A stretch of 44,202 bases of DNA from IMG/VR virus record IMGVR_UViG_3300033233_000065, positions 1 to 44,202 of that record. One strand, written 5' to 3'. The notes below the pieces were generated by a model. That model was not told the origin of the DNA. It did no database searches and saw only the letters and a list, made by a program, of their open reading frames with translations. The stretch comes from a virus. Position 1 is the stretch's first letter; each line of letters starts with the position of its first letter. A program made the position numbers and the translations under genes. Shown here piece by piece: positions 5,645-43,350 of this stretch.

Positions 5645-6094
5645 ATGACGCTTACCGTTGCTGCACCGACTGGTGCTCACTTCGAGTTTGAGGAAGTCAA
5701 GACTGCGAAGGGTACCAAGTCGCTTGGCGAAGTCCCGATTCTCGTCTGGGACGACATCAATGCTCTTATCAACACGATCGGAGCAGAGGGAGTTTTGAAC
5801 ATGAGCGATGGTACCTCGCTGCGTGTGAGTTACCAGTCCATCGCTCGGCGCTTCCGTTCTGTTGATAAGGAAGGGAAGACGAAGACCGACGATCAGATTG
5901 CGCAGGCCCAGATCGACTTCCGTCCTGGCAAGCGTCAGGGTGGCGTCTCGACTCCTGTCAGCCGTGCCAAGCGTGCTGCTAGCAGCGCTGCTGAGAAGGT
6001 TGGTGGAGACGTCGTTGCTGCACTGCTTGAGCAGATTGCCTCTGGCAAGCTCACGGCGGAAGACGCGAAGGCCCTTGCTGGTCTGACTGGGTAG
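5645..6094 (+). CDS. Probably abundant early protein of unknown function (149 aa)
   Basis: First gene behind the strong promoter, with GGAG 8 nt before ATG 5645. Two parts are visible. An N-terminal 85-residue domain (LTVAAPTGAHFEFEEVKTAKGTKSLGE...VLNMSDGTSLRVSYQSIARRFR) is followed, after a basic linker (KRQGGVSTPVSRAKRAAS), by a helical C-terminal tail (AAEKVGGDVVAALLEQIASGKLTAEDAKALAGL). The lone position and strong signal suggest high expression, perhaps a DNA-binding or host-control protein. No family recognised. Confidence 0.75.
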   Translation: MTLTVAAPTGAHFEFEEVKTAKGTKSLGEVPILVWDDINALINTIGAEGVLNMSDGTSLRVSYQSIARRFRSVDKEGKTKTDDQIAQAQIDFRPGKRQGGVSTPVSRAKRAASSAAEKVGGDVVAALLEQIASGKLTAEDAKALAGLTG

Positions 6095-8860: not shown

Positions 8861-9657
8861 TGCCTAACATTCTCGATTGGAAGCCAGATACCCGTCGGGC
8901 TGTGCTAGTCTTTGGAGGGTTCAAGACTGGTAAGACAGCTGGGGCCTGCACGTTCCCGAGACCAAATGTTATTGACTTCGACGGGGGCCTCGCTACTGTA
9001 GCACAACCTTGGTGGCAGAACAAGTTTGGCAAAAAGCCAATCCTCTACCAGACTTTCAAGGAGACCGAGAAAACAGACAGAGGGGTAGTAAAGGTACCTA
9101 AGGCCTTTGACGCTGCGTGTAGGTATTTCGACGAGCAGATGAAGCCAGGTGCCGTGGAACAGTTTGATACTTGGATTATCGACTCAGGAACTACCCTCAC
9201 CGAGGCTGCCTCTAACAAGGGAATCTATCTCCTCGGGGGTTCGAGAACTCCAGGTGCCAAGTCGGAGACTCACGACGCTGCAATAAAAAGCGGCTTGATT
9301 GTTCTGAAGCAACAAGACTTCGGAGCCGAGCGTTCGATGAGTGAGCAGTTCGTCCAGATGGTTCTTGACTCTGGAAAGCATGTTGTCCTGATCTGTCATG
9401 AGAAGATGATCTATAACGATAGTGATGCTATCATCGGGATAGTACCTCTCCTGACAGGTCAATCAGCAGAAAGGATTCCTTTGAAGTTCGATGAAGTTTA
9501 TCGAATGAAGATGGTCAAGAAAGGCCTGGAGATGCAGCGTGTTCTTCAGACCCAGCCGGATGGAATCACTAGATGTGGTTCTCGCCTTGGTGTCCCAGAC
9601 GGTACAGAGTGGACATGGGATGCCCTCAACAAAGCTCTAACTTCACAGGAGAAGTAG
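8860..9657 (+). CDS. P-loop ATPase, RecA/Sak4-like recombination protein
   Basis: 265 residues with Walker A G19-GFKT-GKT26 close to the N-terminus and a Walker B-like WIIDSGTT near residue 108. The arrangement (short N-terminus, VFGGFKTGKT, VIDFDGGLATV) fits phage AAA_24/Sak4-type single-strand-annealing ATPases. These usually lie next to an SSB-like protein, as here. It would load on ssDNA during recombination or replication. It starts at ATG 8860, overlapping the previous stop (TAATG). Confidence 0.82.
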   Translation: MPNILDWKPDTRRAVLVFGGFKTGKTAGACTFPRPNVIDFDGGLATVAQPWWQNKFGKKPILYQTFKETEKTDRGVVKVPKAFDAACRYFDEQMKPGAVEQFDTWIIDSGTTLTEAASNKGIYLLGGSRTPGAKSETHDAAIKSGLIVLKQQDFGAERSMSEQFVQMVLDSGKHVVLICHEKMIYNDSDAIIGIVPLLTGQSAERIPLKFDEVYRMKMVKKGLEMQRVLQTQPDGITRCGSRLGVPDGTEWTWDALNKALTSQEK

Positions 9658-9659
9658 CA

Positions 9660-10043
9660 ATGCCGATGATTCAGCCAGACCTCAGTGATGTTGGCCCGAT
9701 TGAGCCAGGTACTTACAAAGCTCGAATCGACAAGGTTGACACTGGAGTTTCAAAGAGTGGGAATCCAAAGTTGGACATCCAGTTCAGTGTATTTGCTGGT
9801 GGAGAAAGGCCTAAGACTCGTAAAGTCAGTATGCCATATACTGGTGGTGGTGCCTTTGGCTTTGCTGGACTCCTTCGTGCCTGTCACTTCAATGAACTGG
9901 CAGATGCTTATACAAAGAAGGATGGAGCCAAGCCTCCATTCGACACAGACTCCCTCGTCTCTCAGGAGTTGATGGTTGTTGTCGAGGCCGATACCTACAA
10001 TGGCCAGATGACTGACAAGATCGTTAGCTACCTTCCTGCATAA
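9660..10043 (+). CDS. DUF669-like single-stranded DNA-binding protein
   Basis: AGGAGAAG precedes ATG 9660. The 127-residue product has the hallmarks of phage DUF669/SSB-like proteins: I-E-P-G-T-Y-K-A-R-I near the N-terminus, VSKSGNPKLDIQFSVF (a G-x-P-x-L beta segment), and a final beta strand. Its place right after the Sak4-like ATPase is the typical pairing. It would coat ssDNA during replication and recombination. A long hairpin follows. Confidence 0.75.
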   Translation: MPMIQPDLSDVGPIEPGTYKARIDKVDTGVSKSGNPKLDIQFSVFAGGERPKTRKVSMPYTGGGAFGFAGLLRACHFNELADAYTKKDGAKPPFDTDSLVSQELMVVVEADTYNGQMTDKIVSYLPA

Positions 10044-11647: not shown

Positions 11648-12004
11648 ATGTCGGGCCACCATAAGTATTTACCAAAGATCAGTGATCTTGATCTTATGTG
11701 GCTTGCAGGACTTCTAGAAGGAGAAGGATGCTTTGACAATACTTCCAATGGAGTTCCAAGGATACGCCTTCGTATGGCAGATCCTGACGTAGTAGATAGG
11801 GCTGCTATGATCGTAGGACTATCTATTGACAAAGTCAAAGAGACTTCTCCCAGAGGTGTTGGTAAACTTGTAACGTATGATATAGCTATTCACGGAACAC
11901 CAGCAATACAACTCATGCAGCTTTTATATCTTCAAATGGGTGGACGTAGACGTGACAAGATAACAGAAATTCTACGAGCATCTCATGGAAGGTACAATGT
12001 CTGA
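11648..12004 (+). CDS. LAGLIDADG-type homing endonuclease
   Basis: 118 residues with the signature WLAGLLEGEGCF (residues about 18-29), in which the acidic E of EGEG would bind the catalytic metal. With one such motif it would work as a homodimer. It starts at ATG 11648 with GGAG upstream and overlaps the polymerase start by 8 nt, being inserted neatly between methyltransferase and polymerase. Free-standing homing endonucleases commonly lie beside the gene whose empty allele they cut, here probably the polymerase or methyltransferase. Confidence 0.8.
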   Translation: MSGHHKYLPKISDLDLMWLAGLLEGEGCFDNTSNGVPRIRLRMADPDVVDRAAMIVGLSIDKVKETSPRGVGKLVTYDIAIHGTPAIQLMQLLYLQMGGRRRDKITEILRASHGRYNV

Positions 12005-14384
12005 TCTAGTCCAAGCAGGTCCTCGGGACGCAAAGATTATGTTGGTAGGAGAAGCTCCTGGAGCTAACGAAGGTGCAGGTCGTCCATTTTGCGGCTATGC
12101 TGGCGACATGCTCACAAATATGTTAGGCCGCGCAGGAATACAAAGACATGAGTGTTTCATCACGAACCTCTGCCACATCAGGCCTCCAGGAAATGACTTC
12201 GAGTGGTTCTACAAAAAAGAGAACCAGATTCACTACATCCAAGGAGTCCTTCAACTCAAGAAGGACATTGAGGAGATCAAACCTAACCTCGTGGTTGCCC
12301 TTGGAGCCCATCCCCTCCGTGCTCTCACTAATCGAAAAGCTATCAGCGACTGGAGAGGAAGTATTCTGGAAAGTACACTGGTCAAAGGGCAGAAGGTTAT
12401 TGGTACATATCACCCTGCCGCTATCCTTCGTATCTGGGACTACAAAGCCATTGCAGAGTTCGACCTCAGGCGCTGTGCAGAAGAAGCCAAGACGCCAGCG
12501 ATCCTCCTCCCGATAAGAGAACTGATTCTCAATCCTACGGCTGATAAGGCCGAGCCTATCATTCGACAGATGGAGCAAGCAGACTGGCTCGCTGTTGATA
12601 TTGAAACTGCTCAGGATGATAATGGGAAGATACACATTACTTGCATTGGATTCTCAGACCGCTGGGATCGTGCGATAACACTGAGCTTCGATTCTCCACA
12701 GAATCAGCATTTCGCTCGATGCCTTCTCAGTTCCCCCGCAAAAAAGATCTTCCAAAATGGAAATATCTTCGACATCCCAGTACTTCGAGATGCTGGATAC
12801 GAGGTAAGAAACTATGCGTGGGATACGATGCTTGGGCACCATTCTCTCTTTCCTGAAAGTGCTGGCGGAGAAGATGAGATGTCTCGTATGGAAGGCAAGA
12901 AGAAGCAAGCTGCCTTACGAAAAGGTCTTGCTTTCCAAACGTCTATCTACACCCGAGAGCCTCGTTATAAAGATGATGGCAAAATGTGGCATCTCACTGG
13001 AGATATACAGATGTTCTGGCGCTACAATGCGCTGGACGCGGCTGTTACTAGAGAAATAAAAGATGCACAGGATCGAGAGCTTCATGACTTCGGAACGATT
13101 GGAGTTCTCGAACATGAGATGGCATTGACTGAGCCACTGATGGAGATGACTCGGACAGGGATCAAAGTAGATCTAACTGTCAGGGAACAGATGAAGAAGC
13201 AGATTCTTCTTGAGGTTGATCGTCTCCAGGCCTTCCTCAACGAAGGAGCAGGTTCCAGTATCAATGCCGCATCTTCTAAACAGGTTCAAGAGTTGATGTA
13301 TGGAAAGCTTGGACTGCCAGCCAAGCGGAATAAGAAAACTGGTAATCCTACGGCGAACAAGGACGCAATCAATGAACTTGCCGCCAAATACAATCACCCT
13401 CTTCTCCTGACCGTCCTAAAGATTCGTGAGCGTCGAAAGATGGTTGAGACATATCTCAACGCTCCAGTTGATGCAGACAGTCGTATGAGGTGCTCGTGGG
13501 ATGTCACAGGAACAAGAAGTGGGCGACTATCCAGTCGCGCGAGTCTCTCTGGATCTGGAACTAATCTGCAGAACATCCCGAAGGAAATGCGAAAAATGTT
13601 CGTCGCAGATGATGGATGTGTCTTTATCAATCGTGACTTCTCACAAGCGGAAGCGCGAGTCGTGGCTGCCCTCGCCGACGATCAATATCTGCTTGAACTG
13701 TTCGCAGACCCTAAACGGGACGTTCACAGAGAAACAGCTGCTGCAATCTTTGGGATTCCTGTTGGTGACGTTACTCCAGAGCAAAGATACACTGCGAAAC
13801 GAGTCCGTCATGCAGTCAACTACGGAATGGATGCTAAAAGATTTGTTGAAGTGGTCAACGAAGATGCAGAAGAAACGGGAATCAGGATTGATCTCACCCT
13901 TGCAAGAAAAGTAATAGATGGATTCTTCCTACTCCATCCAAACCATAAGACTGTCTATTGGGCAGGGATTGAGCGTGAACTTCGTGCGTCACGTACTCTC
14001 AATACACCATTTGGACGGAAGAGGACTTTCTATGGAAGGATGGATGACAAGCTTCTACGTGAAGCTTACTCTTATCCTCCACAATCCGCCATTGGAGATC
14101 TATGCTGCAAGGCACTAGTCTCTATATGGAAGGAGATACAGTTAGGGCGCCCTGATTGGAAAGTACAGCTTCTCCTCAATGTCCATGATAGCATCCTAGT
14201 ACAATGTCCTAGGGAGAGAGTTCATGAGGTTGCTAACGCTATGAAAGAGTGCATGGACATACCATTCTATGTCAATGGCCATACTGTTAGAGTCCCAACG
14301 GATTGCCAAGTAGGAGTCAACTGGAAGGACATGATAGACATTGAGAAGTGGGAGGCTCAAAATGTCAGAGCGGCTACTCCCTAA
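11997..14384 (+). CDS. Uracil-DNA-glycosylase / family-A DNA polymerase fusion
   Basis: 795 residues; ATG 11997 has GGAAGG 5 nt upstream. Domain 1 (about 1-185) is a family-4-like uracil-DNA glycosylase with GEAPGANE (18-25) and the YHPAA motif (H139). Domain 2 (about 195-370) is a 3'-5' exonuclease with D201-I-E203, GNIFDIP and YNALDAA. Domain 3 (about 385-795) is polymerase A: motif A RDFSQAE (D547), motif B KRVRHAVNYG (K601), motif C VHDS (D731). This is the replicative polymerase; the same fusion is known from SPO1-like phages. The glycosylase part may exclude uracil or be a structural remnant. Confidence 0.93.
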   Translation: MSDLVQAGPRDAKIMLVGEAPGANEGAGRPFCGYAGDMLTNMLGRAGIQRHECFITNLCHIRPPGNDFEWFYKKENQIHYIQGVLQLKKDIEEIKPNLVVALGAHPLRALTNRKAISDWRGSILESTLVKGQKVIGTYHPAAILRIWDYKAIAEFDLRRCAEEAKTPAILLPIRELILNPTADKAEPIIRQMEQADWLAVDIETAQDDNGKIHITCIGFSDRWDRAITLSFDSPQNQHFARCLLSSPAKKIFQNGNIFDIPVLRDAGYEVRNYAWDTMLGHHSLFPESAGGEDEMSRMEGKKKQAALRKGLAFQTSIYTREPRYKDDGKMWHLTGDIQMFWRYNALDAAVTREIKDAQDRELHDFGTIGVLEHEMALTEPLMEMTRTGIKVDLTVREQMKKQILLEVDRLQAFLNEGAGSSINAASSKQVQELMYGKLGLPAKRNKKTGNPTANKDAINELAAKYNHPLLLTVLKIRERRKMVETYLNAPVDADSRMRCSWDVTGTRSGRLSSRASLSGSGTNLQNIPKEMRKMFVADDGCVFINRDFSQAEARVVAALADDQYLLELFADPKRDVHRETAAAIFGIPVGDVTPEQRYTAKRVRHAVNYGMDAKRFVEVVNEDAEETGIRIDLTLARKVIDGFFLLHPNHKTVYWAGIERELRASRTLNTPFGRKRTFYGRMDDKLLREAYSYPPQSAIGDLCCKALVSIWKEIQLGRPDWKVQLLLNVHDSILVQCPRERVHEVANAMKECMDIPFYVNGHTVRVPTDCQVGVNWKDMIDIEKWEAQNVRAATP

Positions 14385-41341: not shown

Positions 41342-41660
41342 TCGGATTAGCCTTCTTCAGTTTGAACGAGACGACCGCTGCTCCTTGCACGATGAGACCT
41401 TTCAAGATCGCAGGGGTCAACTGGCTGAGACAGTCTGATGCACTCATATCTACCGAGCATGAAATATTCGTCCCGATGACACTTGCTCCCACTGCAAACG
41501 CCTGTGTCAGCACAAACATCCAAGCATGTTTTGCCCATGCTGGCTGACTGTCAATCCAACCTCCGAGCTTCTTGATATACTGGAAGGCAAACATCGCCAG
41601 GGGCCCTGCAACTGCTCCGATCAGGAACGACGTAGGAACTAGCTTCAACAGTACATTCAT
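41334..41660 (-). CDS. Holin-like membrane protein (108 aa)
   Basis: GGAGGAACAG before 41660. Three hydrophobic segments: LVPTSFLIGAVAGPLAMFAFQYI (about 7-29), HAWMFVLTQAFAVGASVIG (about 45-63) and LKGLIVQGAAVVSF (about 86-99), with Lys-rich end (KLKKANPNG). The size and three-span topology match class I holins. Lying between the terminase subunits, away from the putative lysis pair, is unusual but seen in some phages. Confidence 0.6.
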   Translation of the reverse strand: MNVLLKLVPTSFLIGAVAGPLAMFAFQYIKKLGGWIDSQPAWAKHAWMFVLTQAFAVGASVIGTNISCSVDMSASDCLSQLTPAILKGLIVQGAAVVSFKLKKANPNG

Positions 41661-42199
41661 TCTGTTCCTCCAGTGATTGATGGCCGCTGAGGAACTTCAT
41701 CTACTTTGACGAAGTCTCCTTCTGCGACCTCTGCATCCATCGCCTGCAGCAACCTTCCTTCTGTCAGGGCTGCAGCAATCTCCTTCGCATCCCTCCCTGA
41801 AAGAGTGAAAGCTTCCATCTGAATCTTGTTCGTCTTGCTCGTCTCTGGGTTCCGATCGAGGATATCCTTTGCAGCCTTGAACTTGACCTCCTCCGTCGAG
41901 CCGTTGGTGATCTGTTCTTCCATCACATTCAGTGCCTTCTCTGATAGCTTCGCTATGACGGCTGACAAGCTCATGGCTCTCTCTGTAACCCCAGAATCAA
42001 AGGATTCCTCAAACTTCCTGCCTGCCACCGAGCGTCTGGCATTACTCACTGTCGACGCTGTGACTCCCGCAATCTGCCCTGCTTCCCTTTGTGTCCTGAC
42101 AGCACCCGACACATATAGCTTCAATGCCATCTTCGTCCTTGGAGGGACGTTTGGATGGTCTTTCTGTCTCCATGCCCTGTTATATTCCGGTGAAGTCAT
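41657..42199 (-). CDS. Terminase small subunit-like protein
   Basis: 180 residues. N-terminal HTH (TQREAGQIAGVTASTVSNARRSVAG, about 34-60) preceded by a basic start, a central helical region (SLSAVIAKLSEKALNVMEEQITNGSTEEVKFKAAKDILDRNPETSKTNKIQ) and a disordered tail. That order is typical of small terminases that recognise the packaging site. First gene behind the minus-strand promoter at 42257-42285; GGTGAA-type context but a weak ribosome-binding site. Confidence 0.78.
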   Translation of the reverse strand: MTSPEYNRAWRQKDHPNVPPRTKMALKLYVSGAVRTQREAGQIAGVTASTVSNARRSVAGRKFEESFDSGVTERAMSLSAVIAKLSEKALNVMEEQITNGSTEEVKFKAAKDILDRNPETSKTNKIQMEAFTLSGRDAKEIAAALTEGRLLQAMDAEVAEGDFVKVDEVPQRPSITGGTE

Positions 42200-42444: not shown

Positions 42445-42459
42445 GTGTCGCATCGACAC
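42445..42459. promoter_or_regulatory. Palindromic operator candidate GTGTCG-CAT-CGACAC
   Basis: Perfect 6-bp arms with a 3-bp centre, ending 3 bp before the -35 box of the plus-strand promoter. The GTGTCG half-site recurs in the leader (42575, 42605 inverted) and after the gene (43097 inverted), which would suit autoregulation. Confidence 0.5.
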
Positions 42460-42462
42460 GTC

Positions 42463-42491
42463 TTGACATTTCACATCATCGGTTGTATCAT
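42463..42491 (+). promoter_or_regulatory. Promoter of the GC-rich accessory gene
   Basis: TTGACA (42463-42468), 17 nt, TATCAT (42486-42491); start point near 42498. Same -10 sequence as the promoter at 43682. Confidence 0.8.
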
Positions 42492-42563
42492 TCATACGTA
42501 GCGAAACGACACGCACGACGGCGGTTGGCCGCGTGTTGGTGTCACCGATGTTTGACAACTGAT

Positions 42564-42581
42564 TGTATGTGTATGTGTCGG
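42564..42581. repeat. Left 18-bp inverted repeat of the accessory gene
   Basis: TGTATGTGTATGTGTCGG; exact reverse complement of 43096-43113. It brackets one gene and its leader, about 530 bp apart. Confidence 0.85.
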
Positions 42582-42619
42582 ATCGAAACAACAACCGATT
42601 CATCCGACACGGAGAAACG

Positions 42620-43081
42620 ATGGACATCAATCAAGCCATTACCGACAACGGTTGTCAGGAATACGGTTTCAAATGGAGCGCCGAAACCGTCAGCCGCGAC
42701 CACGGGCCAAATGCGAGCGATCGGCGCCCGGTAAACAACAAGGCGCAGATCGTGGTCATTTTTGACGTGGCGAAGTTCGAGGCCGCGTTCCCCGGGTATT
42801 TGCTCAAGTGTGCCAATGGCACGTCTCCCCGCGTGGAATGCCAACGCATCGGGCGGAAGTTCACGGGAAATGACATTCCCGGAAACCGCCGTGCGGTTGT
42901 GTCGCACATGATGGGATCGCGCGTGAAGTTGGCGCGCATCGTCAGCCGCCCGTTGCCGGACGGTAAGACGTACACCGGAACGGACGAAACCGAATACCGC
43001 CAGATGTACGCGGCGGCGCTTGTGGACGCCGGAGTTGACGGCCCACTCGCGGTTGAGATCGCACGTAGAACGGCGTGGTAA
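42620..43081 (+). CDS. Accessory (moron-like) protein of unknown function (153 aa)
   Basis: GGAGA 6 nt before ATG 42620. GC-richer than its surroundings, with its own promoter, operator-like palindrome, flanking 18-bp inverted repeats and terminator: the marks of an independently acquired unit. The product (MDINQAITDNGCQEYGFKWSAETVSRDHGPNAS...VVIFDVAKFEAAFPGYLLKCANGTSPRVEC...GSRVKLARIVSRPLPDGKTYTGTDETEYRQMYAAALVDAGVDG) looks globular alpha/beta with a basic middle (RIGRKF, GNRRAV). No family is recognised. Confidence 0.75.
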   Translation: MDINQAITDNGCQEYGFKWSAETVSRDHGPNASDRRPVNNKAQIVVIFDVAKFEAAFPGYLLKCANGTSPRVECQRIGRKFTGNDIPGNRRAVVSHMMGSRVKLARIVSRPLPDGKTYTGTDETEYRQMYAAALVDAGVDGPLAVEIARRTAW

Positions 43082-43095
43082 CGTAGGGTAAACCC

Positions 43096-43113
43096 CCGAC
43101 ACATACACATACA
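43096..43113. repeat. Right 18-bp inverted repeat of the accessory gene
   Basis: CCGACACATACACATACA, exact reverse complement of 42564-42581, starting 15 nt after the gene. Confidence 0.85.
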
Positions 43114-43122
43114 TTACCTCAC

Positions 43123-43158
43123 AACCCCGTAGGTGTTTCGCTTACGGGGTTATTTTTC
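43123..43158 (+). terminator. Rho-independent terminator of the accessory gene
   Basis: AACCCCGTA (43123-43131) pairs perfectly with TACGGGGTT (43143-43151), 11-nt loop, followed by ATTTTT. Confidence 0.9.
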
Positions 43159-43198: not shown

Positions 43199-43350
43199 GG
43201 TAGGAATCGTAGGTCCTTACACCCGGGTTTCATGGGGTGGTAGGTGTTGTAGGGGTTTCCCTGGTGTTTAAAAATATATGTAAGGGAAAACCTTAGGGCA
43301 TACACCTACTACCATACAAAACCCACCCGTCAGGACCTACTACTCCTACC
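43199..43350. other. 152-bp nested palindrome with AT-rich centre: candidate replication origin
   Basis: Three pairs of arms share one centre near 43274: GGTAGGAATCGTAGGTCC (43199-43216) with GGACCTACTACTCCTACC (43333-43350), 16/18; GGTGGTAGGTGT (43236-43247) with ACACCTACTACC (43302-43313), 11/12; GGTTTCCCT with AGGGAAAACC. The core 43266-43283 is nearly all A/T. GTAGG occurs at 43200, 43209, 43240, 43249 and inverted at 43305, 43336, 43345, in pairs 9 bp apart repeated at 40-bp steps, like iterons. Confidence 0.55.

Follow-up and report, generated by a model that had tools for sequence, protein, structure and literature searches.

Where a phage gene lies between two perfect inverted repeats, the question arises of whether the repeats are the ends of a DNA element or the parts of a folded RNA. 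We addressed this question in a single 44,202-base virus record, which was analysed over its whole length and is referred to here as the window. Its leftward late block carries the genes for the small and large terminase subunits, portal, capsid and tail; its rightward early block encodes an exonuclease, a Sak4-like protein, a ParB-methyltransferase fusion, DNA polymerase A and a primase/helicase, and the repeat-flanked gene is located where the two blocks diverge. Our analysis indicates that the repeat is very probably made of the two halves of a 5′UTR-3′UTR helix, which closes a phage mRNA into a loop around the gene.

The repeat-flanked gene and its surroundings

A preliminary description of the locus had reported a self-contained unit in which perfect 18-bp inverted repeats, a promoter and a terminator surround an unrecognised gene. 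The repeats are present at 42564-42581 and 43096-43113, with 18/18 complementary positions and a separation of 514 nt, and a consensus scan recovered both the promoter and the terminator; a transcription unit of its own for the gene, with its own leader, is supported. The features of the locus are listed below.

42463..42491, + strand: putative promoter TTGACA-17-TATCAT (consensus scan, 11/12)
42552..42562, + strand: motif TTGACAAYYGA at the opening of the 5′ arm (exact pattern; −35-like, without a −10 box)
42564..42581, + strand: 5′ arm of the proposed mRNA-closing helix (pairing kept in 20/21 lineages)
42604..42610, + strand: local strand CCGACAC, just before the Shine-Dalgarno sequence GGAG at 42611-42614 (modest statistical support across the family)
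42620..43081, + strand: gene of 153 aa with the family core DGTSxRVxxQxxxR (open reading frame; third-position bias against L005)
43096..43113, + strand: 3′ arm of the proposed mRNA-closing helix, 15-32 nt past the stop codon
43123..43151, + strand: intrinsic terminator downstream of the 3′ arm (consensus scan)
43199..43350, no strand: large imperfect inverted repeat, AT-rich in its middle part, a candidate replication origin, apart from the mRNA device
5645..6094, + strand: paralogue (149 aa), which lacks the UTR helix (profile search)

The two arms form the sole perfect inverted 18-mer pair within 1 kb anywhere in the window, and no further match to the 18-nt repeat with up to three mismatches was found there (0.06 expected by chance). 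An Rfam scan of the window returned 0 matches at the gathering score, the sub-threshold matches being of the kind expected by chance, and a search for tRNAs in the window found none.

The preliminary description had also pointed to an operator-like palindrome, a repeated half-site and a foreign base composition. The palindrome GTGTCG-CAT-CGACAC is indeed present at 42445-42459, but it is not unusual enough to mark an operator: the window has 17 perfect 6+3+6 palindromes in all, and inspection by eye showed none at the corresponding position of L005, the closest relative. CGACAC does recur, with 7 copies clustered inside 42445-43158 among 14 in the whole window (16.8 expected), but the two arms, both halves of the palindrome and one strand of a local hairpin (42604-42610) account for 5 of the 7. 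The gene is likewise GC-rich as described (0.60, against a median of 0.488 over 49 window genes), but other early genes are equally so, and its homologues have a GC content of 0.535-0.61 in 23/23 contigs measured, above that of their own locus in 19 of the 23. Because the homologues are GC-rich in all contigs measured, this composition belongs to the gene as such and does not point to recent import.

Elsewhere in the window, a dispersed palindrome, TGTCCAANNTTGGACA, has 14 matches at up to three mismatches against 1.9 expected, a number reached by 0/100 shuffles. Its sites lie at 1211, 6550, 10071, 15584, 19904, 24964, 29386, 33706, 39478, 42302 and 43638, several of them in intergenic gaps. 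By sequence this family looks like dispersed repressor sites, which we take to be of the stoperator type. In addition, the gene at 11985-14384 encodes a family A DNA polymerase with a uracil-DNA glycosylase domain fused at its N terminus, and for the small terminase subunit (41657-42199) a match resembling sigma-70 region 4 stayed below threshold (E 0.002).

The protein itself remained unrecognised, as the preliminary description had it. The window protein matched nothing in Pfam, PHROGs or NCBIfam; its best match in a phage collection was nonsignificant (E 0.5), as was that in a sequence search of solved structures (ribosomal protein L25, E 0.87). Two AlphaFold models were confident, with mean pLDDT values of 89.1 and 86.7, but Foldseek found no match at E 0.001 in PDB (both models) or BFVD (first model), and the best VIA-align Z scores, 3.0 and 2.4 for the two models, did not amount to a fold match. 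The predicted fold is therefore unassigned and is not shown to be new. The family products have 126-218 aa and a mixed alpha/beta model; in their core, where a beta hairpin leads into helices, S69 and R79 are invariant and V72 and Q75 nearly so (window numbering). The paralogue among the early genes was found at a profile E of 8e-11 and shares the DGTS core, and L002 carries an early-block paralogue with the same core at 9231-9701. The position of the gene near the candidate origin hints that its product may have a role in replication. The suggested defence or anti-defence function found no support: besides the family searches, which were empty for the window protein and gave other members no more than isolated matches at chance level, PADLOC gave no match for the window protein and 1 chance-level match among 17 family members.

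Complementarity of the flanks across lineages

Relatives were collected by scanning IMG/VR with the protein and with the large terminase, followed by profile searches. Homologues with both flanks readable were found in 21 distinct lineages, the window included; the near-identical L003 (to L002) and L087 (to L086) were dropped from lineage counts, and L011 and L056, whose contigs stop before the 3′UTR, were left unscored. In 21/21 lineages the gene is found upstream of the terminase genes and in divergent orientation to them, at 776-3663 nt from the terminase in 22 contigs, the window not among them. L005 shares 70% protein identity with the window, and the remaining 15 sequences of the alignment share 24-38%. 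Window and L005 differ at 34/37/91 sites by codon position, and this third-position excess is expected of a translated gene. In the contig of L059/L095 another gene occupies the slot, and profile searches found no family match in L093 and L050. The nearest named phage terminase shows 33% identity, and scans of bacterial genomes for a host assignment came back empty.

In 20/21 lineages, a complementary pair of 12-41 nt occupies the same two places: the 5′ arm precedes the start codon by about 25-90 nt, and the 3′ arm begins 1-21 nt past the stop. The arm sequences themselves are unrelated between most lineages. Pairing was quantified by an ungapped helix score that sets the 120 nt leading up to the start codon against the 60 nt that follow the stop. 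All of the 17 first-found lineages showed pairing (scores, 30.8-66.2; spans, 12-41 nt), with 5′ arms that fall within −82 to −29 and 3′ arms that start at +1 to +15. When 5′ and 3′ flanks were swapped among lineages, leaving out the combination of window and L005, the 270 combinations had a mean of 20.3 (standard deviation, 4.0; maximum, 43.8), and each of the 17 lineages was beaten by 0-4 of them; shuffled flanks matched the observed score in 0-4 of 500 cases per lineage. Three positional controls had no value above 25.8, namely, the start against the end of the open reading frame (median, 19.0), far-upstream sequence against the 3′ flank (18.6) and the 5′ flank against +141 to +200 (18.2). 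Within the window the gene scores 44 and the next best of 49 genes 24.4, and 652 other open reading frames of the same loci have a mean of 19.7, with 8 that reach 30.8, including the two nonfamily cases described below.

Loci that were fetched after the idea had formed gave the same picture in 3/4 distinct lineages (L072, L084, and L086 with the near-identical L087); in the fourth, L127, the gene is present and the helix absent, and a wider search at that locus was also negative. The L005 pair is again 18/18 and differs from that of the window by a two-sided change from A-U to G-C, and both mismatches in the 17-nt arm of L004 are G.U in the mRNA. Whole-flank duplex energies proved a poor test, in which L002 and L003 were not above shuffles because GC-rich flanks pair anyway, and were replaced by the helix score. 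In 9/21 lineages (L087 uncounted), the exact pattern TTGACAAYYGA overlaps the point where the 5′ arm begins or is at most 13 nt away from it, and near-variants accompany both of the nonfamily genes.

RNA-level and DNA-level repeats

A helix in mRNA tolerates G.U and not A.C, whereas in the arms of duplex DNA the two are equivalent. We therefore counted pairs in the arms of 20 lineages, scoring G.U and A.C equally and leaving out L127, which has no helix. The arms contain 348 Watson-Crick pairs, 30 G.U, 6 A.C and 25 others (P = 3.5e-5). The adjacent large DNA repeat served as an internal control and gave 129 G.U against 125 A.C in its arms; L012, which has no such repeat, was left out of this count. 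Compared with this control, the excess of G.U over A.C in the gene-flanking pair indicates that it acts in gene-strand mRNA. Thus, the ratio of G.U to A.C separates RNA repeats from DNA repeats.

The large imperfect inverted repeat is an element in its own right. It was seen downstream of the gene in 18/19 loci tested, all but L012, with ungapped arms of 34-78 nt; its centre is mostly AT-rich with A/T runs, and its sequence is not shared among loci. The lack of strand bias in its arms points to a DNA-level element. As judged by its sequence, the repeat at 43199-43350 is, with its counterparts, a DNA-level dyad and a candidate replication origin.

Furthermore, the helix is found around other proteins. 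We scanned all open reading frames of at least 50 residues in 27 loci, and two nonfamily frames alone scored above 36. One, at 1359-1685 of L095 in the L059/L095 contig, encodes a 108-aa protein in the same slot beside the terminase genes and has an 18-nt helix (score, 46.8; maximum of 1000 shuffles, 38.0; fold probability, 0.99). The other is a second gene of L039, 130 aa, which lies past the large DNA repeat (score, 53.6; maximum of 1000 shuffles, 35.0; fold probability, 0.82). By profile, neither protein is a family member. As far as sequence comparison can tell, then, the device is modular and not tied to the protein.

Predicted folding, alternative readings and known systems

We computed partition-function folds of leader, gene and trailer for 17 lineages. 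The helix had a mean pairing probability of 0.66-0.99 in 16/17 full-length folds (0.98 in the window); L002 has the arms, yet its full-length fold does not favour the helix (0.03). The ribosome region, from −20 to +3, was predicted to be more open with the 3′UTR than without it in 12/17 lineages (means, 0.55 versus 0.43; Wilcoxon P = 0.003). Openness was unchanged within 0.01 in the window (0.32 against 0.33), L002 and L016 and decreased in L020 and L032, so that in the predicted folds of the window the 3′UTR does not open the ribosome site. The CCGACAC strand at 42604-42610 of the window is able to pair with 42574-42581, which make up the 3′ half of the 5′ arm. Across 20 loci, again excluding L127, which lacks the helix, native 5′ arms folded without the 3′UTR formed more pairs with the ribosome region than borrowed arms did (means, 6.2 versus 2.6; P = 0.011). 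The native arm exceeded every swap in 6/20 loci, 11% of swaps were equally high in the window, and the local hairpin lay beyond 95% of shuffles in 5/17 loci only. These predictions lend real but partial, and in all modest, support, and none in the window itself, to a two-state switch, with a local hairpin at the ribosome site in one state and the long-range helix in the other.

One arm of the helix precedes the ribosome binding site and the other directly follows the stop codon, a placement that points to posttranscriptional control of the gene itself. Taking sequence and models together, we consider it probable that this is a closed-loop mRNA whose 5′UTR-3′UTR pairing controls its own gene, with refolding of the ribosome site as the leading mechanism. 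As long as the 3′ end has yet to be transcribed, the 5′ arm would pair locally near the ribosome binding site and keep initiation low. Once the transcript is complete, the 3′ arm would capture the 5′ arm, the ribosome site would open and the mRNA would be shielded, with the outcome that only complete messages are translated efficiently. Since the 3′ arm starts so close to the stop codon, a terminating ribosome would melt it, which could add feedback. This scheme is built on sequence and thermodynamic prediction from metagenomic contigs, and coupled translation could forestall the switch. More tentatively, and with rather more doubt than belief, we suggest a gene-independent RNA module of a double-stranded-DNA phage lineage, in which the matched arms would act as a check on transcript completion and could move between unrelated coding sequences, complementarity alone being inherited.

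The same closed-loop mRNA might instead serve mainly to set mRNA lifetime, the leader being shielded from endonuclease and translation switching being minor. We hold this to be a serious possibility, if somewhat unlikely: the helix is kept without a conserved contact to the Shine-Dalgarno sequence, the 5′ arms of 20 lineages ending 25-71 nt before the start, and the cited portion of PMC7821165 offers a precedent in Bacillus subtilis hbs, where a 14-nt 5′-3′UTR interaction acts against RNase Y. It is harder to reconcile with the pairing of native 5′ arms with the ribosome region, which exceeds that of swapped arms, and with the promoter, from which transcription would start tens of nucleotides upstream of the arm and leave the 5′ end uncovered. 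Trimming of the mRNA by RNase III, for which the helix would be a processing stem of the kind that flanks ribosomal RNA precursors, is unlikely; long duplexes of 12-41 nt in mRNA sense would suit it, but 16/20 arms are 12-23 nt, which is short for a dedicated RNase III stem. It does draw on icaR, whose 5′-3′UTR duplex is cut by RNase III according to the cited portion of PMC3868564. It seems very unlikely to us that the 3′UTR is released and, as a small RNA, targets the 5′UTR of other mRNA copies in trans. A terminator follows the 3′ arm in the window and several relatives, and autoregulation by 3′UTR-derived small RNAs, which has been reported in bacteria, counts for this reading; against it, the complementarity avoids the Shine-Dalgarno sequence, and L004, L016, L018 and L032 seem to carry a second gene, not a terminator, soon past the 3′ arm.

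Readings at the DNA level fare worse. Paired operators of a DNA-looping, DNA-binding protein would account for one sequence present twice in inverted orientation and for the clustering of CGACAC, but the wobble bias is strand specific and the arms extend up to 41 nt without a shared motif, which leaves this reading highly improbable. To a mobile cassette bounded by terminal inverted repeats, or to a DNA segment that inverts, we assign a practically negligible chance. A perfect 18-nt pair around a GC-rich gene, and an unrelated gene in the slot of the L059/L095 contig, are what such a cassette might leave, and the preliminary description had accordingly proposed a moron layout with the possible ends of a mobile unit. 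In the relatives, however, the gene keeps one slot and orientation and its paired arms stay with it (gene in 21/21 lineages, arms in 20/21, with similar composition), the same ends did not turn up at other places, and no similar DNA was found in phage and plasmid collections; moreover, arm sequences change between lineages while complementarity stays, and the arms show the 30:6 bias for G.U over A.C. A gene and repeats fixed at this locus in relatives are, in essence, the very outcome that the preliminary description had named as refuting its reading. We therefore reject mobility and inversion, and an accessory insertion of the moron type is not supported. Inverted repeats that flank a phage gene need not be the ends of a mobile element.

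The closed-loop mRNA, in contrast, bears on a wider matter. Pairing of bacterial mRNA ends is known from a handful of single genes, and a review asks whether such end-to-end pairing applies to other genes (PMC7821165). The phage group offers 20 natural versions of one device and two more around unrelated genes, and the turnover of sequence with complementarity kept makes the question directly testable with short reporters. As read from its sequences, this lineage of uncultivated double-stranded-DNA phages carries a closed-loop mRNA with covarying 5′UTR-3′UTR pairing; the open-access literature searched yielded no lineage-wide double-stranded-DNA-phage version with unrelated coding sequences.

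Among known systems, phage morons share with this gene their own promoter and terminator and a GC content apart from most of the genome; unlike them, it is fixed at one place in all lineages seen. By analogy, icaR, hbs, aapA and hok are single bacterial mRNAs that work similarly. The hok mRNA is inert when closed, encodes a small toxin and is paired with an antisense RNA. The aapA type I toxin mRNAs of Helicobacter are likewise described, in the cited portion of PMC6733600, as inert when closed, with small toxins and antisense RNA. In the phage mRNAs, unlike these, closure is predicted to open the ribosome site, and the products are mixed alpha/beta proteins by their models, 126-218 aa long, and not small hydrophobic toxin peptides. 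In hbs of B. subtilis, the interaction of the 5′ and 3′UTRs within one mRNA, as in the phages, keeps the mRNA stable and protects it from RNase Y (PMC7821165, cited portion), but hbs is a host gene and a single case, whereas the phage device spans 12-41 nt and is used with unrelated proteins. In icaR of Staphylococcus aureus, 5′ and 3′UTRs of one mRNA are also complementary; there the 3′UTR covers the Shine-Dalgarno sequence and represses, and its authors discuss a leader fold displaced by the 3′UTR (PMC3868564, cited portion). Unlike in icaR, the partner in the phage mRNA lies 25-90 nt before the start and leaves the Shine-Dalgarno sequence free, and the pairing is kept across 20 lineages.
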